Positions 2,410 through 31,900 of a stretch of 37,006 nt of DNA are shown piece after piece. Under the pieces are notes generated by a model. That model did no database searches. It saw nothing but the letters and a program-made list of their open reading frames with translations, and was not told where the DNA came from. The DNA comes from a virus, in the IMG/VR virus record IMGVR_UViG_3300050015_000794, positions 1 through 37,006 of that record. One strand, written 5' to 3'. Position 1 is the first letter of the stretch; each line of letters starts with the position of its first letter. Position numbers and translations under genes: made by a program.

Positions 2410-2959
2410 CTCGAAACCATCCCACACGCCTAGGGTAGCGGAATGTTCCGTGAAGGGAAAGTCGAAGCGATCAAACGCGGATGGATGATGCGTGACTGCC
2501 AGGAGAGACTGGCACTACTTTTTCCCTTACCACTTCGGTCCCGCAAAACATAGCCGCAAAGGCTTCCTGTCAGCCAGCACCGTCAGACAATTAGGGATGG
2601 CCGCAACCGTGGTAGAAGGGACGGCCCGGAACAGAGTGAACCCGTAAAGGCGGCATAACCATTGTCAGAAGCTCGAAACTAGGTGACCACTCCGGGAAAG
2701 TAGCGGAGACTCAACAAAAACTTTCAAACTTCCCCATTGCGACCAGACATCGAGGGGAACTAGGGGTCAGGCCCGAGAAACGTGAATGCAGACAAGTGCA
2801 CAATGTCCAATGGAAAACCAATGCTCATCGAGTCCAAGGACGGGTTTGAGCAAAGGGGTAAACCAAGTGACCATGTCCAAGGATGAAACCGCCGGTACGT
2901 CAAGCCGGTCCCGCAAACGGTAAGCGGGACAATCTCCAACCCCAATAGAAACCAACAAC
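2410..2959 (+). ncRNA. Candidate large structured non-coding RNA (about 500-550 nt)
   Basis: No convincing reading frame covers this 550-base interval in an otherwise gapless block. It is rich in complementary segments I could pair by hand: TGCCAG/CTGGCA (2497-2502/2509-2514), a ten-pair helix CCCTTACCAC with GTGGT-ag-AAGGG (2524-2533/2609-2620, two-base bulge), CCCGGA/TCCGGG (2625-2630/2691-2696), TTCCCC/GGGGAA (2730-2735/2754-2759), a two-tier hairpin TGCTCA..GTCC/GGAC..TGAGCA (2822-2852) and GTCCCGC/GCGGGAC (2908-2930). Loops are A/G-rich. The dodecamer CGGTCCCGCAAA occurs twice (2536 and 2906). Length and phage context resemble the large ornate RNA classes known from phages (ROOL, GOLLD), but I cannot match a consensus. 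Strand is inferred from the surrounding genes, and exact ends are unknown. Confidence 0.55.
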
Positions 2960-3238
2960 ATGAATTTGTGCGATCAAGTAGCAACTCCAAGAATTCCTCA
3001 CGTTTCACAAGCGTTCAAACGTCTGGAAGAAATTCCTGGAAAACTGGAAGAACAAATCGAACGTCTTGACAGGCTTATCGTCGCTGTTCTTTCAGAGGAA
3101 ACACCTTCAGTATCGAAGGAGTTGGTATCACCCAATGAAAACTGGGCGCCTCTGGCGACCGGAATACGCGATGTATCAACCCGCATCGAGCGTCTCATCT
3201 CGCAACTGGAACGAATCAACAATCGAATCGAACTCTAA
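2960..3238 (+). CDS. Small coiled-coil protein of unknown function (92 aa)
   Basis: The protein is predicted to be almost entirely helical, with heptad-like leucine/isoleucine spacing in two segments (around RLEEIPGKLEEQIERLDRLI, and the C-terminal IRDVSTRIERLISQLERINN stretch). This suggests a dimeric or trimeric coiled coil. No catalytic motif is seen. It starts directly after a CAA-rich leader (AATAGAAACCAACAAC then ATG) that also forms the 3' edge of the putative structured RNA. It is therefore the first protein downstream of that RNA and may share its transcript. Confidence 0.65.
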   Translation: MNLCDQVATPRIPHVSQAFKRLEEIPGKLEEQIERLDRLIVAVLSEETPSVSKELVSPNENWAPLATGIRDVSTRIERLISQLERINNRIEL

Positions 3239-4935: not shown

Positions 4936-5388
4936 ATGAAACCTCCAAAGAAACCCGGTCGCGTCTCCAAACCCAAGACAAAGAAGCGTCTCAACGTCGA
5001 ACGTCCCTATTGTGACGGAACCATGAGCAAGGCAGAGTTTGTCACCTTCGTAAAGAACGCCTTGAGAAAGGCACGCTGGCCGGCCAAGTACAAGTGCGTG
5101 GCAAAGACATTCGTCGGAAAGGGGGTGAACCCTGCGACGGGCCATCCCTGCAAACTGCACATGTGCCCCGAATGCCGCGGCCTCTTTCCCCAGACGGGCA
5201 TGGCCGCCGACCACATCATCAGTGTCGTGGGCGTCGAAGGCTTTATCAACTGGGACACCTTCATCAACCGTCTCTTCTGCAACTCCGATGGATTTTCCGC
5301 ACTTTGCAAGGCCTGCCATAGGGCTAAGTCTGCAATAGAAGCCCGCGAGCGCCGGGAACACAACTCAAGCCAACAACTACTACTCTGA
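4936..5388 (+). CDS. HNH endonuclease-like protein
   Basis: The 150-aa protein has the beta-beta-alpha-metal layout of HNH nucleases. A first zinc-type pair MCPEC (Cys77, Cys80) is followed by AADHI with Asp92-His93, an Asn-containing helix (INRLFC, residues ~110-115), then LCKACHRAK with Cys124, Cys127 and His128. The two CxxC pairs probably hold a structural zinc, and His93, Asn and His128 would form the active site. The N-terminal 35 residues are very basic, suiting DNA contact. It could be a free-standing homing-type nuclease or a phage nuclease used in packaging or host DNA breakdown; the sequence does not decide. Its TGA shares a base with the ATG of the DUF5131 gene (TGATG), so the two are probably translated together. 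Confidence 0.8.
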   Translation: MKPPKKPGRVSKPKTKKRLNVERPYCDGTMSKAEFVTFVKNALRKARWPAKYKCVAKTFVGKGVNPATGHPCKLHMCPECRGLFPQTGMAADHIISVVGVEGFINWDTFINRLFCNSDGFSALCKACHRAKSAIEARERREHNSSQQLLL

Positions 5389-6383
5389 TGGGAACCAATT
5401 CAAATATTTCATGGTGTGATTCGACCTTTAATCCGTGGAGCGGATGCACCAAAGTCAGTGATGGCTGCAAAAATTGTTATGCCGAAACCCTGATGGACAC
5501 CAGATACCACATGGTCAAGTGGGGCAAAGGCAATCCGCGCGTCAGGACATCGGCCGCGAACTGGAAGTTGCCTATCAAGTGGAACGCCCGCAAGCCGGGT
5601 CATGTCTTTGCGGAATGCCCCGGCTGTCACCAGCGGAGTGTTTACAACGCGGACGGAATGCCCTGCGGGACACCATTCGGCGCGATCAACTGTTGTCCTG
5701 AAGCCCCGAAACAGGTTCGTCCCCGTGTCTTCTGCGGCTCGCTGTGCGATTGGCTGGATGACGAGGTACCGATTGAATGGCTGGCGGATTTGTTGGATCT
5801 GATTCGCAAGACCCCGAACTTGGATTGGTTGCTGCTTACCAAACGCCCGGAGAACTTCAAACCGAGATTGTCTGAAATCCTTGAATTGATGGGAAACCAC
5901 CTTACGGTTGAAGAAGCATTCCTTCGCGTATTTATCATGCTCATGCTTGAAGGGTGGAGTTCATCGGCTTACGTCGCTACACCGATCGGAAGAGAGAACT
6001 ACTGGATCGGAACCACGGTGGAAAATCAGGAAATGGCGGACGAGCGGATTCCGATCCTTCTATCTATCCAGGCCAAGGTCCGTTTTCTTTCGTGCGAGCC
6101 GTTGCTAGGTCTAGTGAATTTGAATGTTCCCGTAATGCGAGGAACCACATTTATTGTTGGCGATGAAGGTGGCCATGAATACGTAGGAAGCAAGCGACAG
6201 ATGCTTTCTTGGTGCATTGCCGGTGGTGAAAGCGGCCCCAAGGCCCGCACCATGCACCCCAATTGGGCAAGATCCCTGCGCGACCAATGCAAGTCGGCAG
6301 GCGTCCCCTTCTTCTTCAAGCAATGGGATGGCACACGCAACGACATCCTCGACGGCCAACAACACCACGAGTTCCCACTTTGA
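5388..6383 (+). CDS. Phage Gp37/Gp68-type DUF5131 family protein
   Basis: The 331-aa protein matches DUF5131 (PF07505) along its length: SWCDSTFNPWSGCTKVSDGC at the start with Cys20, Cys27 and Cys30, RVFCGSLCDWLDDEVP near 113-128, LDWLLLTKRPENF near 145-157, IGTTVENQ, FLSCEPLLG, and the ending AGGESGPKARTMHPNWARSL then GVPFFFKQWD. The family is widespread in phages and plasmids. Its cysteine arrangement has been compared with radical-SAM enzymes, but its reaction is unknown to me. This member is longer than the usual ~240-280 residues and carries an extra Cys-rich insert (Cys77/Cys80 and Cys102/Cys103, possibly a zinc ribbon) plus a second insert around residues 160-200. It overlaps the HNH gene by one base. 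The C-terminus looks intact. Confidence 0.88.
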   Translation: MGTNSNISWCDSTFNPWSGCTKVSDGCKNCYAETLMDTRYHMVKWGKGNPRVRTSAANWKLPIKWNARKPGHVFAECPGCHQRSVYNADGMPCGTPFGAINCCPEAPKQVRPRVFCGSLCDWLDDEVPIEWLADLLDLIRKTPNLDWLLLTKRPENFKPRLSEILELMGNHLTVEEAFLRVFIMLMLEGWSSSAYVATPIGRENYWIGTTVENQEMADERIPILLSIQAKVRFLSCEPLLGLVNLNVPVMRGTTFIVGDEGGHEYVGSKRQMLSWCIAGGESGPKARTMHPNWARSLRDQCKSAGVPFFFKQWDGTRNDILDGQQHHEFPL

Positions 6384-8808: not shown

Positions 8809-9143
8809 CCTGCGACGCCGAGACCGTCAAGACCTGTCTCAATTTCGCCAAACTCAGCAGCAAATTGCAGACTGAAATGGCAATGTCCCTAATGGCGGAC
8901 CCGGCGGTGAGGAGGAAACTGGTGGAGCAGATCAAACTGCCCGAGCATGAGTTGATGAAGATCATCGACAAGGCGCTCAACCACTTCTTAAACACCTTGC
9001 CGCTGGCGACGCAACTGGGCGAGAACCTGTTTCTCACCGCGTTGGGAAAACACTCGGGACTCACCGGAGACCCGTTGATGAACCAGATCATCTCTGCCAT
9101 CAACGTGGTGATTGCGGGACAGGACTTTGACGATATCGACTGA
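8685..9143 (+). CDS. Protein of unknown function (152 aa), start uncertain
   Basis: From about residue 45 onward this reads as a convincing helical protein (CDAETVKTCLNFAKLSSKLQ, then MADPAVRRKLVEQIKLPEHE). The first ~40 residues are low-complexity, rich in Asn, Gly, Arg and Glu, and overlap the end of the 7549-8808 gene in a different frame. The ATG at 8685 has AAGGACAAAG upstream. The next in-frame ATG (8877) would cut into the helical part, so either 8685 is real and the overlap is 124 bases, or a non-ATG start near 8800 is used. It lies directly upstream of the primase-helicase gene (22-base gap). Confidence 0.6.
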   Translation: MDPKNRNDGRNPGGNRGDRHEESHSEDEQRPAGQDLESSQLTCDAETVKTCLNFAKLSSKLQTEMAMSLMADPAVRRKLVEQIKLPEHELMKIIDKALNHFLNTLPLATQLGENLFLTALGKHSGLTGDPLMNQIISAINVVIAGQDFDDID

Positions 9144-9165
9144 ACCGGATAGGAGTCACACACAC

Positions 9166-11007
9166 ATGACAGACAAGACCGAATTCTACGACCTGGAGGA
9201 AATCAAGATCGCGCTGGCAGGAAGGATCGACGAGTTCATCCTGCATTTCTTCCCCGAGGCCAAGCGCCACAGCCAGTGTTACAAACTGGGAGACATCAAC
9301 GGGGACAAGGGAGACTCGTTCATGATCTCCACCCGCGAGAACAATCCGGGCTATTACAAGGACTTCGCCGACCCCACGGTGTGCGGCAAACCCTGGCGGC
9401 TGGCGGCGATCAAACTCAACGTGAGCCTGCGGGAGGGTATCGTCTGGCTGGCCAACTTCCTGAACATCCAACCCATCCAATCCTTCGGCAACATCAACAT
9501 TGCCAAGGACCCCGAGAAACTGGCACGGGAACTCCGTCCGCTCAGTGCAAAAAGCCTGGCCTATGCCACGAAGCGTGGAATCACCGAAGATACACTGCGC
9601 AAATACGGTGTGGCATCCGGTGTGCACGACGACACGATCTTCCCCTACTACGACATCCACAACAAGCTGGGCATGGTCAAGCACTGGGGGCACGTTCCCA
9701 AACCCGACGGCAGGAAGACCACCTGGACCAACGACAATCCCGTCATGTCGCTCTTCGGCAAAGACGTGTGTGATCCGGAGACTGGCCTGCAGAAGCTGGT
9801 AATCACCGAGGGGGAGTGGGACGCGATGTCCTGTTTTCAGCTGGGGATCCCCGCCGTGTCGATACCGATGGGAGTCAACAACCACTCATGGATCGCCGAT
9901 GATTATCATTATCTCTCGCACTTTGATGAAATTGTTCTTCTCTTCGACAATGATGCGCCGGGGAAGAAAGCGGCCGACGAGGTCGCCGGACGACTGGGGC
10001 GGGAACGCTGCATGATCGTGACGCTTCCGCTCAAGGATGCCAACGACATGCTCAAGGCGGGCCGCGGTTCGGAGATTGACCTGATCATCAAAACCACGGT
10101 GAAGGATCCGATCGCCGAAATCGTCGAGCCATCCTCGATGAAGGACGAGGTGCGTTCCTACATGCGCAACGACCATTTGGTGGAAGGGGACGCCTTCTTC
10201 CTGCCCGGATTCAACATCGCCTTCCGCAAACACGAGATCACCCTGTGGTACGGCTTGAGTTTCCACGGCAAGTCAGTGTGTTTGCAAAACCAGATCGGCT
10301 CCCTGGCGGTGCGCGGAGAATCCTCCTGCGTCGCCTCCTTCGAGCAGTTGCCGCCGATGACTTTCTCGCAGATTCTGGCCTCCGTGGTGGCGCGGCCGAA
10401 CCTGCCCTACGAACCTGACTTCGATGCCGCCTTCGATTGGATGAGTGAGCTCGTGTTCATGTACAAGAGCATGGACCGGGCCACCCCCAAGCACCTCATC
10501 TCCACCTTCAAGCATGCCCACAAACGCTACGGAGTGAAGACCTTCGTAGTGGACAACATCATGACCATGGCGATTGACCGGGGTGACAACACCGACCAGG
10601 CCAACGCGATGGACAAGTTTCGCATGTTCATCGCCGAGGTGCCGGGACATCTGCACATCGTCGCCCACCCGCGCAAGCCGCCGGCAAACACCACCACTCC
10701 ACCCACCATGGGAGACATTCGAGGCGCTTCCGAGTTCGGCGACATCCCGCACAACATCATCCTGGTGTGGCGCGACATGGCCAAGGCCGAACGCATCGCC
10801 GAGATGGAGGATGGCAATTATACCACCGATGAGATCGACGCGTTCTGGGCCTCCACTCCGGATGGAAAACTAGTGGTGAGAAAACAGCGGACTACCGGCG
10901 AAACCCCAATGATCAACTTCTGGTTTGACAAGATCACAAAACGCTTCATGACAAAAGCCGGTCATCCCTTGCCGATGTTCTCCGAATGTCCCTGGAGCAA
11001 AGACTGA
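9166..11007 (+). CDS. T7 gp4/Twinkle-type primase-helicase
   Basis: The 613-aa protein joins a Toprim domain to a RecA/DnaB-type helicase. The Toprim core shows LVITEGEWDA (Glu215) and LLFDNDAPGK (Asp261, Asp263), the metal-binding residues. The helicase shows Walker A GLSFHGKS (363-370), a candidate catalytic Glu393 in SFEQLPP, Walker B FVVDN (460-464), the sensor-like VAHPRKP (499-505) and a GDIRGASEFGDIPHN strand-loop with Arg519. It would unwind the fork as a hexamer and may prime lagging-strand synthesis. The N-terminus has no CxxC-CxxC zinc-binding module as in T7 gp4; only isolated cysteines (38, 73) are present, so primase activity may differ or be lost, as in metazoan Twinkle. The start at 9166 follows AGGAGTCACACACAC. 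It is the main replication gene of the window. Confidence 0.92.
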   Translation: MTDKTEFYDLEEIKIALAGRIDEFILHFFPEAKRHSQCYKLGDINGDKGDSFMISTRENNPGYYKDFADPTVCGKPWRLAAIKLNVSLREGIVWLANFLNIQPIQSFGNINIAKDPEKLARELRPLSAKSLAYATKRGITEDTLRKYGVASGVHDDTIFPYYDIHNKLGMVKHWGHVPKPDGRKTTWTNDNPVMSLFGKDVCDPETGLQKLVITEGEWDAMSCFQLGIPAVSIPMGVNNHSWIADDYHYLSHFDEIVLLFDNDAPGKKAADEVAGRLGRERCMIVTLPLKDANDMLKAGRGSEIDLIIKTTVKDPIAEIVEPSSMKDEVRSYMRNDHLVEGDAFFLPGFNIAFRKHEITLWYGLSFHGKSVCLQNQIGSLAVRGESSCVASFEQLPPMTFSQILASVVARPNLPYEPDFDAAFDWMSELVFMYKSMDRATPKHLISTFKHAHKRYGVKTFVVDNIMTMAIDRGDNTDQANAMDKFRMFIAEVPGHLHIVAHPRKPPANTTTPPTMGDIRGASEFGDIPHNIILVWRDMAKAERIAEMEDGNYTTDEIDAFWASTPDGKLVVRKQRTTGETPMINFWFDKITKRFMTKAGHPLPMFSECPWSKD

Positions 11008-16945: not shown

Positions 16946-19900
16946 TCACTCGTCACTTTCCTCGCGGATGACCTTCTTGAGCTCGTCACCCAGCGCGGTG
17001 CGCAAATCCCGTGTGCTGACCACCTGGGACAACAGGTACATCACGATCTTGAGATAATCCGGTTCCTCAACCGCGGTGCTGCGCGCGGCGGTGACCGCCG
17101 AAGATCCCAGGTCGTACAACGCAGCCGTCGGCGCGGTGTAGGAGGCAATGTCCTCCAGCGCACCACTGTTGCGGTCGAAGATACGGATGCCTTCCGGATT
17201 CAAATTGCTATCGGCAACATCCATGTCTTTAACAAAACCGAAACCTTCCTCCACCGATTTGTCCATGAGGTTCTTGTAAACCGCCTGGACGGGGGAGTAA
17301 CCCAGCAGCAAACCGAAAACAGGGATCGCCTGTGACATTTCCACCAGTTCCTTGCTCATCAGGTCGGCCCATGCAGAATTGCGTGCGGAATCCGGATCAC
17401 GCCAGTCTTGGAACATCTGCTTCTTTCCTCCCACCAGGGTTTTTTTGAGCAGGTTGGCTGCGAACCAACCGTCCTCCTCGTTGGGGGCAAGGACCTTGTC
17501 GGCCACCTCCTGCGCCTTGGTCTGGGCGTCATCATCATCATCCCCACCCAGTTTGAACATGGTGTAGGCGACAAGCGGAATGAGCACATACAACTTGGTG
17601 ACATGAAAGACCATGTTCTGCACAATGGTTCCAACGATGTTCTCGATCGCCTCGCGCTTCATCCGCGCGCTTCCTTCGGTGCGGACTTCCTTGCCCGTCG
17701 CCGGATCCACCACGGTTGATTTGGTCCACAGCGCCGGCAGCATTGCCGAGATGTTCGAGGACCCCGTAGCCGTTTGGTTGCTGAAGCGCACGATGGAACG
17801 AATCAATGAGTGAACCCCCGGATTCCGGGTCTGATTCTGGAAGATCAGTGCTTTCTTGGCTTGGTCGGACTGGCCCATCATGTCGTTGACCTTGACCTGG
17901 GCATAGTGAAACACCGAAGAAGGAATGTCGGAGATGGGCATGTCAAGAAGAGCGTCCACATCCTTCGGGGGGAGAACATCAAGAAGACCACGGGCATGCA
18001 GCGACTGCAATTCATGAATCACCTCCGTGGCATAGATGGACATCGATAATAAACGCTCGGTGGAACCAATGGTGATTTCCATGCCCTTTTCCGACAAAGC
18101 TTCGATCTCCTTGGCAGCGCGTCCGGCGTAGGCCGCGATTCGGTTGGTGCCGTCACGTACGATGCGCCGGCTGGTGCCCTTGTAAGCGTCGTAACCATTG
18201 GCCTGGCGCAGGAACACAAACATGTTCGTGTTTTGCACGAATTGTGTGAGCTTGTCCGTGAATGTCTCGAATGGTGCCGTGTTGGTTCCGGTAATGGTGC
18301 TATTGCCATGCAGTTTTTTCTGTAACTGGTTGGTGAGAAGCCCGCTGGCCACCCGTGCCGTGATGGCGGAAAAGGTGCGGATCTGGTTGAACTGACCCAA
18401 CACGGCCTTCTTGACCATGATGCCAATCATCGGAGGAATGATCTGGTTGATCCACTGGGTGGCAGAAATGAGTGCCCGGGCAATGAACACAGAGGAAAGG
18501 AAATGTGCCATTTCTGCCGCGCGCGTGTCATGCACGCCAGCCTGCATGTCGTTCTGGATCTCCAGCTCACTCTCGCTCAACACGGCGGCCAGAGCCACCT
18601 TCCAGGTCCGGTAATCGGCACTGTGCTGGTGGATGTCGTGCATCACCTTCGAGTCCGTGATTTCAGAGTAACCTCGAGGTGTCTGTTGCTCCACCCCGAA
18701 GGTGTTGCGAAGAATCGAGTAGTTGGGAGTGACATGGATACGATAAAGGGCGTCACTCACCGTTGAGGAGGTCGACTCCATGCCGTTAATGTTGATTGGC
18801 CGCAACACCGCATCCGGTGTCATGATCATGCGGTTGCCCGCCCCGCCGTAGAACGGGCTCTGGCTGATGTCGGTGGTGTGGATCGGATCGGTTGGACGCG
18901 CCGGTTCCGGAAGTCGTTCCTTGGCTTGCGAGGCGTCCACAGCGAACGAGTAATTCATCGGAACAATCGAGAGCATCCGCCCCCGCTCCACCATGCCGCT
19001 GTTCTCCGTTGTGGGAGGAGTGGACAAGGCCATGCGGGTGAGTTCGGTGGCGTCTGCCAGTCCCTTGAACAAACCCAGGACATTTCTAGCGTGAGCAAGG
19101 ATCTCGGCGCCTTTCGGAGAGGAATCGCGCAGAGCATTGACCACATTGCCGATGAGGACCTCGGCCGCAATGTTAGCCTGGGCCATCTCCGCCGCCGTAC
19201 TGCTCGACCAGGCACCCTGGCCCACCAGCGGACCATCCAGCAGGGGTTCCAGAATCGCGTTGATCTTGTGCATCATCGGGATGTCGCGGATCAGACTGAT
19301 CTGGGTGGCGTTGAAGAACTCGTTGACCTTACCGCCGACCCCCTTGCCATAGTGCGCCTTCTGCGTATCGTTGAAAAGAACCAGGTCCTCCATCCCCTTC
19401 TTGTAGTTCACGTACCAGTTGCGCAGGTTGTAGAAGTTGCTGCCGTCGCGAATCTCCAGGATGCCCATGAGGGAGGCGACGAACTTGGCCTTGCTGTGGT
19501 CAAGGGCATTGCTGCCAATCGCCTTGGCGGTAGGCGCCAGCAGATCCTCGGCCTCTGCCAGACGGGTGACGTATCCGGTGCGGCCGGAAATCCCGTTAAT
19601 GCCCCGGTTGAGAATGTTGAGAACCTTGTTGGCTTCCTCGTAAGCGGAATAATCCTTGGCGAACTTGGCGCGCAAACGGGCGTCCTGATGATGCAGGTAC
19701 TTCATCGCCCACAGCGTGGTGTCGCCGATTTTGGCGGCCAGACCTAATGCCAGCCGGTCAAGAATGCCCTGGCCTTCGATCTCCGAATAAACGTCGGAGA
19801 AGATGTCCTCGATCTGCAAGCCGCGGATGCCTTCGGAACTTTGCAACTTGCGACCCGGAAGCAGCATGCCATTGTCCGACACCACTTCCTCAAGGAAACT

Positions 19901-22900
19901 TCTGATCTTTTCGGTCGAGGAATCCACTCCGGTCTTGAGAGTGGGCCAACCGAACGAATGCACGATGCGTTCCACCTTGGAACGAATCAGGTCTTCCGCC
20001 GCTTTCGCATCCTTGTTGTTGAGATTGAGGTTTTTGGAAACACTGGTGCTGTTGCGGTTGGCGAATGCGACCAGCCCGTTAATATAGTGATCACTCACGA
20101 TCTTGCCGACTTCGCGGCGGGTCAGGGGTGGTAAATTCCGGGAGGCGCGACGGGTGTTCTCATTGTTAACCCAGGCAATTCCATTGGTACCAGTGGTGGC
20201 GTTGGCGAAAGCCCCATCGAGGTGGACGTCATTGAAACCCAGCACGTTGTCGGTCATGGCATTGGGGCCACCCACCGGATTGGTCGGATTCACCGCTTCG
20301 AGGATGAGTTCGCTGATACGACTGTTGACCTTGTTCGGGTTGCGGCCGGTCTCGGTGAAGCGACGCGCCATGTCCTCCTTTGCCGTAGTGGAAGCCAGCA
20401 TGATGATCTCGCCATTGTTGACCAGATGACCGATCAGGTTGCGGCGGGAGTCAATGTTATCAGGTGCCGTGTGGAAACGCACGCGGGACCGGGTGTTCTT
20501 GTCAATACCCATGCGGATGATCTCGCCCTTGAGACGAGAGATCTCCTTCTTGGCGGTATCGATCCTGGCTAGCAACGGATTGACCAACTTGTCGCGTTTG
20601 GCTCGGTTACTTGGCGACTTGAACCAGTCCATGTGCTTCTTGACTTCGAAGCGATCGGTCTTGACCTGTTCCTCCAGAGCGCGAATTGCGGAGTTGGCAT
20701 TGTCAGGATTGGCGGAAGGAGTGACACTGACCAGACGGGTTCCCAGTTGCGGGTTGGAAAGAATCGCCAAAGCATCAACACTCAGGGTGTTTGACAGGGA
20801 ACGCTGGCCTCCACTCACCTGTTTGGCCGCGGCATGGAATTCGTCCCAACGCGCCTGGATGACCTCATCCTCCAACTTGGTGTTGGCCATGGCATTGGTG
20901 ATCAGCTGTGCCGGATTGAAGTTGGCATAGGTTTGCAGACTGTTCTGCAACAACCGGTAATTGGCCATGGCCCGATTCTCCGAATAGTCCTGCAAAGCCC
21001 TGCCAAGCGCCTCCTTGTTGATGTAGTAGGAGTAATCATTGTGACCCTTGGCGGCCGCGTCCTCCCACAGTTTGGCATGGTTCGCCACGGCTTCCTCTCG
21101 AACTCCCTCGCGGTCCGAATCCGTCTCCTTCACTTCCGGATTGACGAAGTTGAGTAGGAAGGGAATATGCGGGAACTTGCCAGGCACCGAGTTGCCGGCG
21201 GCGTCACGACGGGTTGCCTCGCGCTGGCGAGTGTCGACATGGGTGTAGATTCCCAACTTGGTGGCGTGGGTCGAGTCATAGACCAGACGCTTCAGCAACT
21301 TGTTGGCGTTGCGTTTGGCCAGAGTCGCCGACAGCAGTTCGTTGTTGGCCTTGCGCAATTCCGCGTGATCTTTCGCCGTGCCCTTGCGCATCATCACCTC
21401 GGTGAAGGTTTCGGCGGGAAGAGCGAACTGCTCCACCAGGTTGTGGAACAGATCGTGGTGAGGTGTGCCGTCAGGCGTCGAGTCGGATTCATCCAATCCC
21501 TCGTTGAGCCGGTCCATCACGTAGTTGCTGACCCGTTCCTTGTCCCAACCATGCTCGAACAAGGCCACGAGGTTGCCCATGAAGGAGGTCATGTTGTCGT
21601 TGACATGATCCACCACGCTCACTCGCTGTCTTCCTTCCTTGCCTCCCAAACTCAACCGGGACGCACTGGCGGAGAGATGCTTCTCCAGGTTCTCGACAAA
21701 GTCCGACGCCGCAAAGAGATGCAGCTTCTTGGTGGTGGAGTTCTCCTGCACGCGAGGAGCCAGGGAACGCCACAGTTCCTGAGGATCAAAGACCATGTCC
21801 AGCGCCTCCGCGAGTTCCTTTCCGGTAACCACTTCCCCGCCGGCAATGTGAGCAATGCCAAGTAGGCTGGAAGGTAGTTTGATTCCAAACTTCGCCTTGG
21901 CGATTTCCGCAAGATCGCGCGAAACCCGTTGACTGAAGTTGTCCAGTTGTTCGTTGATGATCTTCAACTGGGCCTCGTAGTCCGCCTTGTTCTGCTTGGT
22001 GTTCTTGGAGGCGAGCGCCTTGCGCTTCAGTTCCAGCTGATCGCCGGCGAGACGCGCCTTGAGCAGTGCCTGTTGGTGGCGGAGGAGATTCCGGCGGGCC
22101 GCAAAGGTATGCAGGATCTCACTGGTACGCTTCCTGATTGTAACGGTGGTGTGGGAGGCAACCAGCGACGCCACGTTGACCACACCTTCGGTGATCTTGG
22201 TCAGAAAGTCCACATCCTCCCGGGTGATCTCATCCAGCATGCGCTTGACTTCAATCTCGCTCGGCTGCTCCGTCAGTTTTTCGATCAACTCCCTGGACGC
22301 GGCCTCCTGCTTGATCGCGGCGGAACGGGTCTGAACCAAACCCAGCACCATGGCTTGGGTTTCATCGAGGTGACGTTGCAACAAACCAACGGGCAGGTAC
22401 TGGGCATAGTGAGTCATCGCATCGTCGTCCAAAAGCAGATCAAGAGTCTTGACGCCGTAGGGATAGGGCAGCAACTCGCCCCTGGGGTTATCACTGGTGA
22501 CCCGACTGGCCTTGGCCACGGCGGCGGCAGCAGCCACCTGGATGCGCGCGTTGACCTGGGGCGCCAGGGCGATGAAAGCGGTGGAGAACGAACGGGTCCG
22601 ATTGCCACGGAAGATCATGCTCATCATCGTGTTGTTGTCCGAGTTGCGCGGATTCTCGATGTCGCGCCAGGTCCCGGCGGTCTGCGCGTTGAAAGCCGCT
22701 TCGTTCTGCAATATGGGACCGCTGAGAGGATCATCGGACTTGCGCAGCAGGTCGCGATTGGCGGTGATGAAACGCGGATTGTCCGAAATCGCACGCGGAT
22801 GAGCTTTAGCCAGACTAAAGACCTTCGACAAGGTGTTGAACAACATGATGTCGGTGGGCTGGATGTAGTAGCGGGAAAACTCGGTCTGGTTTAGGTCCAG

Positions 22901-25900
22901 CGCCGAGCGCAAAGCCTCGCTGGGACGGGCCATGTCAAAGCGGTCATCCACCCGTCCGTAGAGCAGGGCGTTGATGCTGTCCTGAGTGGGCTCGAACCCG
23001 GTCAACTCAGCCAGATACGGGTTGTCAGGATCGACCTCGCGGTTGAGCTTCGCCTCCATCTCAGCACGTCGTCCCACCAGTTCCTCCAAACGGTCCGCAT
23101 TGGGCCGGCCGCTGTTCTCGTCGGTGATCGACAATAGGCGTTCGATCTCATCCACAATGGATTCGTAATCATCGTCTGCATGCGCGTTGTCCGTGTTGAG
23201 CACCTCAGGAGACTCGCCGGTGGACTCGTTGACGTCGTTGTTATAGAGTCCCCGCTCGGTGTCGAGAGCAACCTTGGTGGCGTCCCACAAGTGACGGACC
23301 TCGAGCAGGGACAAGTTGTCATCCGCCAGTTGCGGCGTGCCCAGCATCACCCGGTCGAACAACAACTTCAGATCGGGATCGGTCAACAACTGGGCGAACA
23401 CCAGGATGTTGTGTTGCGAGGTGCGGGATTCCGAATCCAGCAACGAAATGTCCAAACCCTTCGGATCGGTCGACTGGGTGCGACGACCCAAGTGAATATC
23501 ATTGGTTCCTTCTGTCCAGGCAGTCTCTGTGAAAACCTTCGCGGAGTTCATGTACATCGCCATTTCATTCACATGCCGACGCACCAGACGCTTGAGATCG
23601 GCGCGGCGGGCCCGGTCCATCTTGGAGATGAGTTCTGTATTGTCCGGATTGGCCTTGAGGTAATCATCGGCCAGTTTCTTGAGCGCCTCGGCACGCTGGG
23701 AAACATTTTTTTGGAAACTGTCAATGGCGAAGATGGGCGACACCGAATCCTTGAATTGGTTCATCAGGTCGTTAATGGCCTCGCCGATTGTCGGATTGGC
23801 CTTGGCATGCAGCGTGAACGCCTGCGCCAGTACCGCCAGACGCTCGGAGCGGGTAGCTTGACGGGTTTGTACCTGGGGAGCGAAGACGACGTTGGGACGG
23901 CCTTCACGGCCCGGGAAAATGCGCAGGCCGAAATTGATACCGCTGCCCTGCATGTCCTTCTCGCTGGGAGGGAAGATCAGCGTACGACCGGGAAGGGTTT
24001 GCACCACCAGGGACACCAGCTCGTTGTCGGAGGCATAGGGTGCGCCGTACTCGGGCCAGAAGCGGTTGGCATCGAACATCAACAGACCACTCGACCAGAT
24101 GCGGTTGCCTTTGTCGTCGCGTTCGTTCTCGCGGATCATCGAGGGTTTGTGAGCCATGCGCAGGGCCAGTCTCACGATGAGCTCGTGCTCCTCGTCGGTG
24201 ACGAACTGGTGCTCGGCGGACGTGGTGGCAAAGGGAATTTTGGTGTCGGTACGGGTGCGCGTGGTGGTCAACAAACTGCGATTGGAAACATCTCCCGGAG
24301 AATCCAATGTCATTTCCCCGGCAACCTGTTCCTGGCTGATGCGGTGAGCCTCCTCGAACTCGGGACTGCCCACGAACGCGGAGAAATCCTTGGCCAGTGG
24401 CGAGGACTCATCCAGCGGAAGCGCGGTGAGCATGGTGCGCAGCGCGTCGGCGATCTCGTCGGGGGTGCGGGCGCGGGTCTGATCGACATAGGCCATTTCC
24501 TTGTCGGCCTTGAACTGGACCAGATCGCGCAACAACTCGATGGAGTCGATGGGACGCGCGGTGACCGCCAGGCCGGCAAAGGTTCGCGCCACGGTGGGAA
24601 TCGTCCCTTCCGTGTTGGCGGTGAAATACATGGGATGCGTCTGAGCGAACTCGTCAAAAAGTGACTGCATCAACACCGGGTTTTTGACCTGTTCGAACAA
24701 ACCGCCCAAGCCCCGGTTGATAACACTACGGAGATTGTCCAGATCCAAGTCCTCGATTCCCAGCCGTTCCAGGTCGAAGAGAAAGCGCTCCGCTTCCATC
24801 ACCGATTCCACATAGGTGGTGTGCATTCCGAAATCCTTCGAACGGAAGGCGATCTTGAGGGCAGCGGAGGTGTACCAGCGTTTGCGGCGCTGCTCGGGAG
24901 CGTCCAAGGTTCGGGTCTCCCGCTCCAGATCGGAGTCACTGGCGGAGTTGCTGCGTTCCCCCATCGAACTGCTCAGGGGAGCCCGGTTGTCAGAATCCAG
25001 ATCGTCAATCTTGTGATAGGTGTTACCACGAATGTTGTCGGTGTTGTCAGTCGGGATGATGCCCAACACGTTAGCTCCAGCATAGACACTGTTCTTGCGA
25101 TTCTCAATGTCGTCTGCATTATCGGGACGGGTCTTGTTGAGTTTGTCGAGATATAGACCAAATCGATCATTGCTGTACTGGAGATTGTTGTAGTCATCCA
25201 GAAGTTCGTACGCCCGTAGTGGAGCGAGGCGGATGTAGCGTTTGTCGGACGCGAAGAAGCGCAGGTTCCACGTCACCACGTTGAGCACTCCGGGATCGAT
25301 GTTGCTGTGGCGGACCTGTTCGAACTCGGGACCATAGCCTTCCCAGGCGGCGTCGCGCGAAGTGCGGTTGAGCTCGCGCAACAGTTGCATGCGGTGATGA
25401 CCGGTGAACCCGTTGAGGGCAATACGGGTGAAACGCACGTCGTTGTTGAGCAGGAACAGGGAGCGCTTGAACTCGTTGGCGATACTCGAATTGAGAAGAC
25501 GGTTGGCCTCATACTCGAAACTCTTGCCAGGACCCTGAAGGGCTTCGAGACGTACCTTCTCGGCATCCTCCACAAAACGTGCCATGCGCATCCTGGCTTC
25601 ATCCAGACGGGCGCGCAGGCGCGGAGCGAAGCGTCCGGCCAGGGTCTCACGGCCCGCAAGATGGGTCACCAAGGCGTCGGGGGCCAGGGCCGACTCATAC
25701 ATGCTCAGAACCTCCTCGATGTCGCCCAGGCTCCTTCCCAGACTTCCCGGAGCACCACCGAATTCCGCGCGGATTACCGGGTTGACCGGATTGGTAATGG
25801 AACCCTCGATCCGGTTGTCGGGATCGCTGTCCACCTCGGGCGCAAGTTCGTACTTGAAGGTGCCCAGCATGCGCGCGAACTTGCCGCCATTGACCGCGGC

Positions 25901-28900
25901 GAAGTGGCGTTTGTCGTCCTGTTCGCCAATGGACTTGATGAATTCAAGCAAACCACTGAACTTCATCGCCGGGAACATCTGTTCGATCGTCTCGTAACGG
26001 GCGAACATGTTGGAGTCCACGTTCTCGATCATGCGGATGTTGAAACCACCACCCTCGCCGAACTTCATCATCTCATTGTTTGGGAAATTCTCCCGCTGCA
26101 TCAACGTGATGAAGCGTTCCGCCATGGACCAGCCAGCGAAGTTGGCGTTGGAGGAGATCGTGCGTTCCATCGCCTCATCCTTGAAACCGCTGCCGGGGAA
26201 CATGGCGCCGGTCACGGAATACCGCCAGGAGCCGTCCACCATTTTGGGCTGATTGGCGATCGAATGCTCGGCGTTGAGATACAGGTCGCCCATGGCATGT
26301 CCCAGATACCCGGGAGCCAGGTTATCCTCGATCGTGTGCGACAGGGTGCCCACGCTGACCGAGTCTGAAGGAAGAGCCGGCAGGCTGTTCCAGTAGCGTT
26401 CATCCGCATCATCGCCAACCTTGCTGAAGACCAGACCATATTCGCGGCTGTCAAGTTCGTTCTGTCCCACCGCTCGTTGGAACAGGTAGCGTACCTGTTC
26501 GTTGTAGGTCTCCAGTGCATTCTGCCAGCGCATCACCCGTTGGTAGCGATCTCGAGCCGCGTCCAGATCCAGATCCTTCATTGCCCGCAACAGACTCAGT
26601 TCGTAGGATGGTAGATCCTCATGGGCGATCAGGGAGTTGTCCGGCTTGTGCGCGGATTCGACCCGTTCCAGTTTGGCGATCATCGAATCGATCTTCGCCT
26701 TGGTGTCGAGATTGTTCTTGAGGATGCGGCCTATCGCCTGGAACTGTTCGCTCATCCGAGCAATCGCATCAGTGGAGGGAATCTCCTTCCACTTCATGTC
26801 CTTGTACTGCTCCTGTCGTTGGAACAAGTCACCCAGCCGGCCGGGTTGTTGCGCGATCTTCTGACGGGCGACATTGAGCAGGGTGTTGATCCAACGCGAC
26901 TTGAGTTGTTCGTGGGTCTCGCCTTGTCCGTAAAGTTTCTCCCTGGGTTGCAGTTCGAAATTCAGATCCGCCGCTGCATTGAACAGGGCCACGCCATGCT
27001 TGACTGGGTCCAGGATCAGTTTCCTGAGTACCTTCAGAGCCATGGTATCGTTGAAGCGCAGGGCGTCCTTGCGTGCCTGGATGAGGTTCTGCATGCGGCG
27101 AGCGATCAGCGAACTAGCCACTCGGTCATTGGTCTTGAGCGGCGTGCCGGCAAGCACCTCCGCCATGATGCGAATCTCGTTGGGATCACTGAAGTCGTTT
27201 CCACTCTCGTTGGTCAGCAGCCGGTTGAGGTCGGGAGCGTCCCAGCGTGCCGATTCCAGTGCCCGCCATGCCATCACCGCGTCGCTCAAAGCCAGGTTGT
27301 AGGACTTCTCCCCGTTGAGTTCGAGCAGGGCCTTCTGAATGGCCTTGAGTTCGTCGGGAGTGATCAGCTCGTTGACCTCAAGCGTCTCCACGATGTTGGA
27401 ACGCAACGACAACTGACCGCTGGCATGGTCGAGTTTCAACAGATCGTCCAGATGGGTGACTCCGAGGGAGGCTATCTGAGGTAGTTTGCGCAATAGGATC
27501 AACGCGTCGGTGTTGCGTGCCGCCACCTTGCCGATGACATCACGTCCGGCCTCCCGCGCCGCCGCGTGACGGTTCATATCAGCCACTGTGATCTTGCTCT
27601 TGATCTTGTCGACATCCAGATTCAGTCCAAAGGATTCGGCCGCGGTGTCGAGTCGGCTCAGCATCTCGGCCAGATTGGGATCAAGCTTGCCCATCACCCA
27701 GCGCATCCGTAATACCTGTTGGATCTTCACCAGGTAACGACGGAACAGGTTCATGATGGTGCGCACGCCCTTCTGAATCGTGCCCTTTTCAAGATCGGCA
27801 TTGAGCGCGGCCACCAGATGATAGGAATCCATGGACTGCTGCTCGGTGTGGTTGCCGCTGACCAGTAGGGAATACATCTTGCGCATCACCTCATGGGCGA
27901 TCTGTTCGGCCTGCTGGAGGCCGGTTTCCGTCGCCAGATCCGGATACATCTTGCCCAGTCGCTCAGCCACGGTCTTGTCCAGGATCTCACGTAGAAAGTG
28001 CAAACCCTTGACGTTCTGCAGGTCCATGATTCCCTGGTAGAATTCGTGCATCTCCTCGGATCCGAAGATCCGCGCGGCGACCACATGCAATCCCTCTTCC
28101 CCCATCCACGAGGACAACTGACGGGCGACCTCGAGCGACACCAGTTCGTCGTAGGCGGCACCCTTGCCGGGTTGATACGCACCGAATAACGTGCGGTCCT
28201 GTAGGATCCTCAACATCTTGTCAGGATCGAGATGAATCACCTCGGAACGGTGGGTGGAACCGGGAACCGTGGTGGAGACAACATTGACGAAGGAGGTTCC
28301 AGGCAGGGCTTCCCACGCGATCATGTCGGTGTTGAGGGCGGGAGCCACCACCTTGAGAATCGCGGAAATGGTCTTGACCAGAGTTGGTCGGTCCAACGGT
28401 TTGGAAGTATCCAGAAGGGCCGCCAGACGCGGCAGGAGCTCCGTAGCGGCTCCGGAGAGCAAGTGACTGTGCCAGTCCATCGACAGGCGGTTGAGGTCCC
28501 TGAACTTCACCTCGGTGCTCACTGTGCCCTCATCCAGGTTGTAGGAGGTGAAGCTTTCCCCGAAGAGCGTCTGCGCGCCCAGCCGCAGAATGTTGACCCG
28601 CTGGAAGCGGTACACCCCGTCGGCGATATCCTTCATCACCAGAACCACGTTCTCATCTCCCTCGACCGCCAGGGCATCACCAAACTCAATCGGCATTTCC
28701 ATGCCTTGAGCGGGTGTGTAGTCCAGCAGCTCGGGATCTCCATTGACCGAGGTCCACTTGCCGCCGGTTTCATCGGTGATGCCGACATCCGCCGGGTTCA
28801 TCATGTAGAGAGGCAGGCTCTCGTCATGGAACGCCTGAAGGGATTCCGCTAGATTTGCAGCATTGAGTTCCAGGGATTCGGTTTTGACGGGGGGCTTGGC

Positions 28901-31900
28901 CAGTTCGTCTAATTCCTCCGTGGTATGGACTTTCTCGACCGCAGAAAGAACCTCATCCTCAGTAGAAACCTTCGGGGAAGAAGGCTCCCCCGAAGGTTCT
29001 GATTTGTCGCCTAGCACTTGCCCTTCTTGGGCTTCGGCATCGGCTTGCTTTTCTTCGCTGCCATGGTCGTCAGTGGGTTCGTTGTTTGTATCGGATGCCG
29101 GTGAAGGCGCGGTAGATTCAAAAACAGGAGGACCTGATTTAAGAGTGATGAGGCGACCCGCAGCGGAGGACTTGACACTGTCGGCCCGATACCGTTTGGG
29201 ATCGGTCAAGCCACCGAAGATTTCGGTTTTCATCGAGGCGAGTCGTTGCAGCTGCGCCTCATCGGTTATGGATTGGATTTGCTTCAGGGTTGGCAGCTTT
29301 TCCTCCTTGGTCACCGGACCTTGTGTCTCACCCGTTGATGCTTCTGGTGTTTGTGTCTCAACAACTGCCGGTTGGTTTACAACAACAGGCTCGGTGGCGA
29401 CAGAAGGAGTCAGTTCGGCGGTGCGCGCCAGGATGCGTTCCACCGAGATCCCCAGATCCTTGGCACGCTTGATCGCCACGTACTTAGCGGCGGCTGCCTG
29501 GACGTTATCGGGGTCCGCCACGGCCGCGGCATCGTCCAGCAGGGCCTGTTCCCTTTCGACGGGATCCTTGATCAGTGCAAGCTTGGCGAACAAGGCTTGT
29601 TGGGCGGGAAAGATGTCATTACGTTTCTTCTGGTAACCTTTGGCGAGTTCATCGTGAGATGGTACAGGCTGCGGGCCTGGTGCAGGGTCAGCTGATGTTC
29701 CTTGTGAAGGATTTTCAACGCTTGGTTCTTGGGCAGACGCAGGATGGCTTGCAACCGCGCCGGCGGTAGGGACATTGACAACGGGAGGAACCGGGGTGGT
29801 GTTTGCATTCGAAGTGTTGGTGGAACTCGAGACGGACGCATCAGGCTTGACGCGAATCTTGCCGTGCCACTGGGAAGTCGGGATGACACGTTTGTCGGAA
29901 AGAACAAGCTGATTGCCTTTGGTGGTGCTCTTGACCTGGCTCCAGGTTCCGTCGGATTGCTCCATTTCCACCGGCTTGTTCTGCAACAGGGCCAGGGTGA
30001 TCGCAGTGTGGGCGTTGGTCGAATTGCGGTGGTTGAGTTTGGAATCGAGAGTCACTCCGCCAACCTTGTTGAGCGAACCGCCCTTCATCGCCGCCTGGGT
30101 GATGGCATGCACCTTGTCGGCCATGGGGATGTCCGAGGAACCCATGATGTCGGCGATCTTGAACGAATCGCCATTAATCCGTACCAGTCGATTCGGATCT
30201 TCCGAGAACTTGACGATATTGTCGGCGATGTTCTGGAACGGAGCGAGGATCTCCTGGTGGACAAGCGCTTTGCGCTCGATGTCAGGAGAGAAAAGTTTCT
30301 GGGCGAGAGAGAGCGTGGAACCGTGCGAAGCGCCCGCAGCGCCGCCCAAGCCACCCAGAAAAGCACTTTTGGCCCAGAGCGAGAGATGCTGGCTGGCATT
30401 GCCCCAGATTTCCTTGTCCCAGTCCTTGGACTCGTCGAACATCACTTGCAAATGATCCGAGATCATCTGGTCCATGCCCTCCTCGACGCCTTCCGAAAGA
30501 ATGTCGGCAATGGGTCCGCCACCGCGCAGACCAAGTTGCTTGGCCTGGTTCTTCATGGTCTTGATCACGTCCTGGGTGAAGGCGGAAATGAACTCCGGAC
30601 TCGCCTTCATGTTCTTGATGGCAGTCCTGAAGTAATCCAAACCCTCCCTGGTCTTTCCCATGGTCCGCAGGGTTTGAATCAAAGAGGATCCCAGTTCCTC
30701 ATTCACACCTTTCATTCCAAGAAGACGTTCCGCACCGGGAGCAAAACGGTTCATCATGCCGGTGGCAATGGTCGCCGAGATCGCGTCGGAAGTTCCGGCC
30801 ATCCACGCCTGCTTGTAGGCCTCGTTCTCGTCTCCGGTCTGCTCCAGGGTCTGGTGGTAGGTCTGACCGAAAGTCATGCCGCCCGCCTGGATGCCTCCGA
30901 AATAGGCGGTGGGATCGCTCATCGCGCCCTTGAGGAAGTCCAGGCTCTTGCGGCCGAAACTCTTGGCCACCAGTTCAGCACCGGCTTTCTTAACTACTTC
31001 CGCAGTGACCGCTTTCGCCGCACCCGCCGCCGCTGTTTCGTAATAACCCTTGGCAAGCAAACCATCCATCAAGGATGAACCAAAACCGCCAAGCGCCACC
31101 ATGGAACCCAGCTGTCCCGCCAGTTGCGTGAGATCGCGCCGGCTGACGTCAAACCCAAGTTTGTCTCCACCAATGTGAGCCAATGTCTGGTTCTTGTAGG
31201 CGCCCGCACTCATCTCCGAGAGATAACCCCACTCCTGCGCAGGGATCGATAGGAACTTGCCCGCCGTGTTGTCCTTGTCCTGGGTGAGCGTGTCAATCGC
31301 CCGTCCGACGAGGAACAACGCTCCGGCGCCGACATCCGCCGTGGCGTCGCGGAACGAGTCGGCCAGTTCGGAGGCTAATCCATAGTTCTCCTTGGTCATG
31401 CGTTCCTTGTTGGCGCGCAGGAAGTCCACCCCGTTGCCGCCCTTTTCCAGGTGCGTCTGCAAATCTCCTAGCAGGGTCTTGTTGCCTTCGTCAGTGAGAA
31501 GATATTTGTAAATCTTGTAAATTGAAGTTCCAACAGCCACTCCGGGGTTGCCATATTTGAGAATCGGATTCTCCAACACGCTGCCTTCCAGATCGGAACC
31601 CATCACCCCGTCGGCCGCGCTCGAGTATTGCTTGGCCAGGTCGACGATGCCCGCGTTCACCTTGCGGTGATAGTCGATGATCATGCGCCTCTTCTCCGCC
31701 ACGTTGTAACCCTCGGCTCCATTGATCGCCGCCTCCACCTTGTCGATCTCGGAGAAGTTCTGCGGGTTGATGACCAAGTCACCGGCCACCTTGCGCACGA
31801 TCTCGTCGGGTTTCATCACCGATGGGTTGAAATCGCGCCGCTCAATCATCTTATCGAAGGACTGGCGCATCACCTTGTTGTCCGGATCCACCGTGCCAGG

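Follow-up and report, generated by a model that had tools for sequence, protein, structure and literature searches.

Does the 550-nucleotide gap at positions 2410-2959 of this viral contig encode a structured RNA and, if so, of what kind? Positions are those of the window, i.e. the whole stretch of 37,006 nucleotides that was analysed. The gap is flanked by open reading frames at 1837-2409 and 2960-3238. Its longest sense open reading frame has 51 aa, and the statement of a preliminary description that the gap lacks a convincing reading frame thus holds. The same description had called the neighbours SSB-like and coiled-coil genes; neither had a Pfam or PHROG match, and no relatives were found through the flanking proteins in IMG/VR or in phages. 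The gap belongs to the replication/recombination region, as shown by the genes for a PD-(D/E)XK-type exonuclease (362-1291, + strand; phrog_2139, E 2e-25) and for a DNA primase/helicase (9112-11007, + strand; phrog_239, E 2e-92). A gene for a DUF5131 protein (5388-6383, + strand; E 1e-74) adjoins the early replication genes. On the - strand, a 5158-codon open reading frame (16946-32422) fills more than 40% of the 37-kb contig and corresponds to an unusually large phage protein; neither half gave a convincing Pfam domain (best 16.8 bits, below the cut-off).

The gap had been proposed to hold a new or divergent large ornate RNA of the ROOL or GOLLD kind. The 4227 covariance models of Rfam 15 gave no match in a 671-nt region at E <= 10, and none in seven homologous loci at E <= 1. 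The models of ROOL, GOLLD, OLE, group I and II introns, RNase P and HEARO matched neither the window region nor the homologues tested; all of these except HEARO had been put forward for comparison in the preliminary description, and they yielded nothing at E <= 10. The RNA is therefore not ROOL or GOLLD. With Rfam at gathering and lax thresholds, only tRNAs, C4, isrK and weak chance matches were obtained. A search for the motif in open-access literature text returned no relevant paper. Candidate structured RNAs of phages have been surveyed on a large scale, and the RNA described here may be listed there as an unnamed candidate. A CsrA sponge, a CRISPR-repeat mimic and an IscB omega-RNA were considered and dropped for lack of fit. 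The whole gap region folded no better than shuffled sequence (z +1.49), and minimum free energy gave no signal for the whole region or for the larger unit described below, as expected because the RNA is pseudoknotted. Poor folding energy and the lack of an Rfam match alone would have argued against a structured RNA; comparison with other phages reverses that.

The trail started when blastn weakly matched phage MW202879 with window 2472-2515 (E 0.6); the two differ by paired one-base deletions, one on each side of a hairpin. A blast match to PAKlein3 misfits the hairpin and was dropped. The strongest hairpin pair of the gap, at 2475-2514, had been missed in the preliminary description; the 47-nt stretch has a z of -3.2. 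It forms unit 1:

2472-2517, + strand: unit 1, GUGAC hairpin pair, a motif shared with loci L002-L007, L008-L021 and many more
2475-2479/2489-2493, + strand: hairpin 1, followed by the junction GAC (2494-2496)
2497-2502/2509-2514, + strand: hairpin 2, with the hexaloop GAGAGA (2503-2508)

A pattern search retrieved the same hairpin from five further viral contigs, and in all five the complementary 3' arm was found past the letters searched for. Wider patterns gave 19 contigs and then, among the matches listed, over 100 each in IMG/VR and in GTDB genomes. The 270 raw core matches, not all of which are real, include 109 with at least five stem pairs and 80 with four. The motif has the consensus GUGAC-N-GCC-(n)-GARAGA-(n)-GGC-AC and follows an AC/GU-closed hairpin. 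At 70 of 136 non-redundant loci this preceding hairpin has three or more inner pairs; when the 3' strands were swapped among loci, the mean was 30.6 and the maximum 41. The defining pattern (GUGAC-NGCC-n-GARAGA-n-GGC after an AC...GU hairpin) is present at window 2472-2515, and a diverged version lies at 2683-2708 in a second unit. In all, the GUGAC hairpin was found at well over 100 phage and prophage loci.

Comparison of all loci against each other revealed that they have further blocks in common, with shifted positions; window 2590-2662 is one such block. The pattern derived from it fetched 15 homologues of unit 2 from IMG/VR (L049, L139, L281, L282, L284, L285, L286, L288, L291, L294, L296, L298, L300, L302 and L305). 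The order of elements is UUUCUCCC-N-H1, a variable insert, GGGAUGGCCGCAAC-N-H1', GAAGGCACGGCC, a hairpin H5 with H3 in its loop, GUAAAUGCG, a hairpin with an AACC loop, H3', and finally GGUGAC with the GARAGA hairpin. The window carries the elements that define this subclass (CUCCC-N-H1, GGCCGCAAC-N-H1' and the H5-H3 pseudoknot), and a covariance model with the window itself in its training set matched 2595-2709 with 86.3 bits. The features of unit 2 and of the rest of the gap are:

2519-2710, + strand: unit 2, multi-pseudoknot RNA running from UUUUUCCC-N-H1 to the GUGAC-type 3' hairpin; 15 homologues
2528-2533, + strand: 5' strand of H1 (UACCAC), with CCC (2524-2526) just upstream; covaries with 2609-2614
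2534-2593, + strand: variable insert, longer than in the homologues
2599-2626, + strand: H2 hairpin, GGCCG (2599-2603)/CGGCC (2622-2626); invariant in the homologues
2609-2614, + strand: 3' strand of H1 (GUGGUA), in the loop of the H2 hairpin
2627-2644, + strand: H5 hairpin, CGG (2627-2629)/CCG (2642-2644)
2634-2637, + strand: 5' strand of H3 (GAGU), in the H5 loop; partner 2671-2674
2671-2674, + strand: 3' strand of H3 (GCUC); covariation with 2634-2637
2683-2708, + strand: divergent 3' GUGAC hairpin, GUGAC at 2683-2687 and stem 2690-2694/2704-2708; aligned in the homologues
2711-2959, + strand: remainder of the gap; no homologue found, stems not above shuffles

H1' lies in the H2 loop and H3 in the H5 loop, so both helices are pseudoknots. 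We infer a further contact between AACC and GGU in the unit 2 RNA. The strands of H1, H3 and the 3' hairpin were picked out manually and put, with consensus filler, into a composite alignment in which helix positions were set by the conserved flanks and the register of L285, L294, L298 and L302 was chosen by complementarity. In this alignment of 15 sequences, whose figures therefore lean somewhat towards structure, the three helices together were paired in 94.9% of cells, against 28-41% when the partner was slid by 1-3 columns; both sides had changed in 77 cells, and none of 500 shuffles reached this result. Pairing was 96.7% for H1 and 91.1% for H3, with double changes in six of six pairs of H1 and six of six aligned pairs of H3, and 98.2% for the covarying stem of the 3' hairpin; four of the six H3 pairs form in the window. 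In a plain MAFFT alignment, H5 was paired in 97.6% of cells and two of its three pairs changed on both sides. H2 gives no evidence of covariation because the search pattern required it to be invariant. Covariation among homologues, the check suggested in the preliminary description, is thus found in H1, H3, the 3' hairpin and H5, and the conserved protein-like frame that would have spoken against an RNA is absent from the homologues. By its covariation, its lack of a conserved frame and its occurrence in many phages, the window RNA is a real conserved structured phage RNA.

The long-range helix proposed earlier at 2524-2533/2609-2620 is real: it is H1 with a CCC/GGG extension, and its core 2528-2533/2609-2614 covaries in the 15 sequences. 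The 6-pair helix at 2625/2691 is contradicted by the homologues, which put its bases in 2599-2603/2622-2626 and 2690-2694/2704-2708. Helices drawn in 2711-2959 are unsupported, with 12 stems of at least six pairs observed against a shuffle mean of 15.7 and no homologue; this part may contain a further diverged unit. The idea of a conserved structured phage RNA therefore stands, without the link to ROOL or GOLLD. Instead of a single ornate RNA of 550 nt, the gap is made of at least two units of ~45 and ~190 nt, lying ~190 nt apart, plus a remainder of ~250 nt. The repeat reported at 2536 and 2906 proved to be an exact 12-base match, CGGTCCCGCAAA, with one copy (2536-2547) lying in unit 2, within its variable insert, and the other (2906-2917) in a hairpin of seven pairs towards the 3' end of the gap. 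In a single sequence, that of the window, CCATCC (2417-2422) can pair with GGATGG (2479-2484) in the loop of hairpin 1 of unit 1. This pairing would form an H1-like pseudoknot; similar arrangements were seen by eye in L004 and L006.

The RNA is retained independently of genes: L282, an 11-kb fragment only, and the window have 94 nt in common at 89% identity (6e-30) but no protein match. No close relative other than L282 was found with the core common to the two. A different, larger fold has the same 3' hairpin as its end in prophages of alphaproteobacteria. It reads GCGAAAG-helix-GAGUAGG-hairpin-CUGCAACGUC, and its two helices covary in seven sequences (in a composite alignment that likewise leans towards structure). 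The window-subclass model gave weaker full-length matches in many other loci (best L008, 32.8 bits). The family thus has a common 3' end and a varying body. Tandem units ~120-600 nt apart occur in L036, L081, L181, L188, L234, L235 and BUCT708, and complete phages in which the RNA was found carry one or two copies at E <= 0.05. The minimal size is ~65 nt, within an 80-nt spacer between two tRNA genes. Loci L069, L045, L107, L207 and L233 are closely related, with 100-200 nt in common around the GUGAC hairpin. Phages of cyanobacteria, alphaproteobacteria and gammaproteobacteria, and probably of other bacteria, are represented.

In annotated phages, the motif lies nearly always in an unannotated gap. 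It occupies the early-operon leader after the CI/Cro region in the temperate phages BUCT708, Medea1, mEp390 and P7641 (the repressor of P7641 being our own reading of a gene pair without names), a position not seen in the window, Alexa or RcCWillis. Other copies are found in the gap before the terminase genes (DIBBI, PSKM, CS01, ESP2949-1) or in tRNA arrays (MD18, Mwe-JY26, Pokken, L006). The ~140 non-redundant loci have 52 tRNA genes within 1 kb of the motif, every one of them on its strand (0 opposite); these genes are not independent, several coming from the same arrays. Its occurrence at well over 100 phage and prophage loci, often next to tRNA genes or heading gene clusters, points to a tool that many phages share. 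In the window and several homologues, the RNA is inside the operon and not at its head, and in several unit 2 homologues the unit fills, with little to spare, the interval from a stop codon to the following start codon. The end of the motif often precedes a start codon by 20-60 nt, or in L006 a tRNA by ~6 nt, and the gaps around it are as large as 0.7-1.5 kb. RcCWillis, Alexa, Bajun and Itty13 have no co-directional gene directly after it. Downstream genes are very diverse and unrelated to each other, and a gene-specific riboswitch was rejected for that reason. Coupling to intrinsic terminators, suspected by eye at three enterobacterial loci, was dropped since no enrichment was found over 113 loci. 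A test of IMG/VR loci for an intergenic position based on open reading frames gives no information, as antisense frames fill GC-rich DNA.

Our leading, tentative reading is of an RNA that works in cis, on the transcript as it is synthesized; the likeliest form of such action is put-like antitermination through modification of RNA polymerase. The put RNA is ~70 nt long, has two stem-loops and lies in early-operon leaders; it causes terminator read-through without a phage protein, and its action is blocked by mutants of the beta' zinc-binding domain (PMC9378689). In the mechanism proposed, the nascent RNA would fold during transcription and bind either an elongation factor or the RNA polymerase of the host; the polymerase would then pass terminators, pauses and untranslated stretches exposed to Rho, operon leaders and tRNA arrays among them. 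The role played by HK022 put RNA in one group would thus be filled across many phages by an unrelated fold. This reading is based on the gene-independent placement at leaders and tRNA transcripts, the low copy number and the two-stem minimal form, and the leader position after CI/Cro in four temperate phages, where nut and put sites lie, was counted in its favour, as were the copies before terminase genes, the strand bias with tRNAs, the diversity of downstream genes, the covariation, the lack of a conserved frame and the hairpin 1 count above its control. The lack of sequence resemblance to HK022 put, the lack of terminator enrichment downstream, the orphan copies in RcCWillis, Alexa, Bajun and Itty13 and the position inside the operon in the window and several homologues were counted against it.

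The main rival, owing to the copies without a co-directional gene downstream, is a stable trans-acting non-coding RNA, like ROOL and GOLLD in role and not in sequence, that would be processed from the operon transcript like the adjoining tRNAs and perhaps serve as a scaffold or decoy for host defence or RNA-binding proteins. We regard it as possible though doubtful; the orphan copies and the lack of terminator enrichment make it nearly as likely as put-like antitermination. The large gaps around the motif, the tRNA neighbourhood, the many strictly conserved loop bases and the tandem copies all fit such an RNA, whereas units down to ~65 nt, the tight stop-to-start fit in several homologues and the lack of an Rfam family do not. 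A cis element for processing, stability or translation of the downstream message, including a self-cleaving ribozyme that separates tRNAs or messages, is unlikely: the short distances to start codons and to the tRNA of L006 and the conserved unpaired bases would suit it, but the downstream genes are unrelated, no Rfam ribozyme matches and the RcCWillis and Alexa copies have no downstream target. The idea that no RNA is involved, and that the locus is a DNA hairpin or a degenerate small gene in which a peptide MAAT... could begin at the conserved ATGGCCGCAAC, is very improbable and already largely refuted. Although ATGGCCGCAAC begins open frames of 5-50 aa in homologues, these are broken by H1 loops of 6, 7 or 8 nt, which shift the frame, and by early stops; the compensatory changes in pseudoknotted helices and the strand bias with tRNAs also argue against it.

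This strongly conserved RNA is absent from Rfam 15 and from annotation, and would rank among the commoner structured RNAs of phages. Were it an antiterminator, phages would quite generally rely on the capture of RNA polymerase by RNA only, which is known from HK022 and a few relatives. With a mechanism other than RNA antitermination it would be a new class and, if trans-acting, a new class of phage RNA testable in the cultured phages mEp390, Cronobacter CS01, Stenotrophomonas BUCT708 and Pseudomonas Medea1. There is some chance, below even, that it represents an undescribed family of modular RNAs with pseudoknots, very widespread among the phages of several bacterial phyla and with a mechanism unlike those of put, nut, ROOL and GOLLD.

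Among known systems, the lambda-type nut site (boxA/boxB) is alike in its small conserved hairpin with a purine-rich loop and in its place in early leaders. The boxB loop is a pentaloop, whereas the hexaloop GARAGA is found here. ROOL and GOLLD also occur near tRNA genes. They too are structured non-coding phage RNAs with conserved loops, but each is one RNA of 500-800 nt (PMC12286853), whereas the GUGAC-hairpin RNA is built of modular units of 45-190 nt, has different conserved sequences and matches no Rfam model. In form, the RNA resembles putL and putR of HK022, which were considered as homologues and rejected for lack of sequence similarity. Both RNAs are compact, with two stem-loops and a short junction, are present in one or two copies per phage, lie in early-operon leaders (here in four temperate phages) and have no dedicated protein partner that was seen; the ~65-nt minimal GUGAC-hairpin unit also resembles the ~70-nt two-stem put RNA in size (PMC9378689). 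Unlike put, the GUGAC-hairpin RNA has a much wider host range, is often part of a larger pseudoknotted RNA, and is found in tRNA arrays and inside operons as well.
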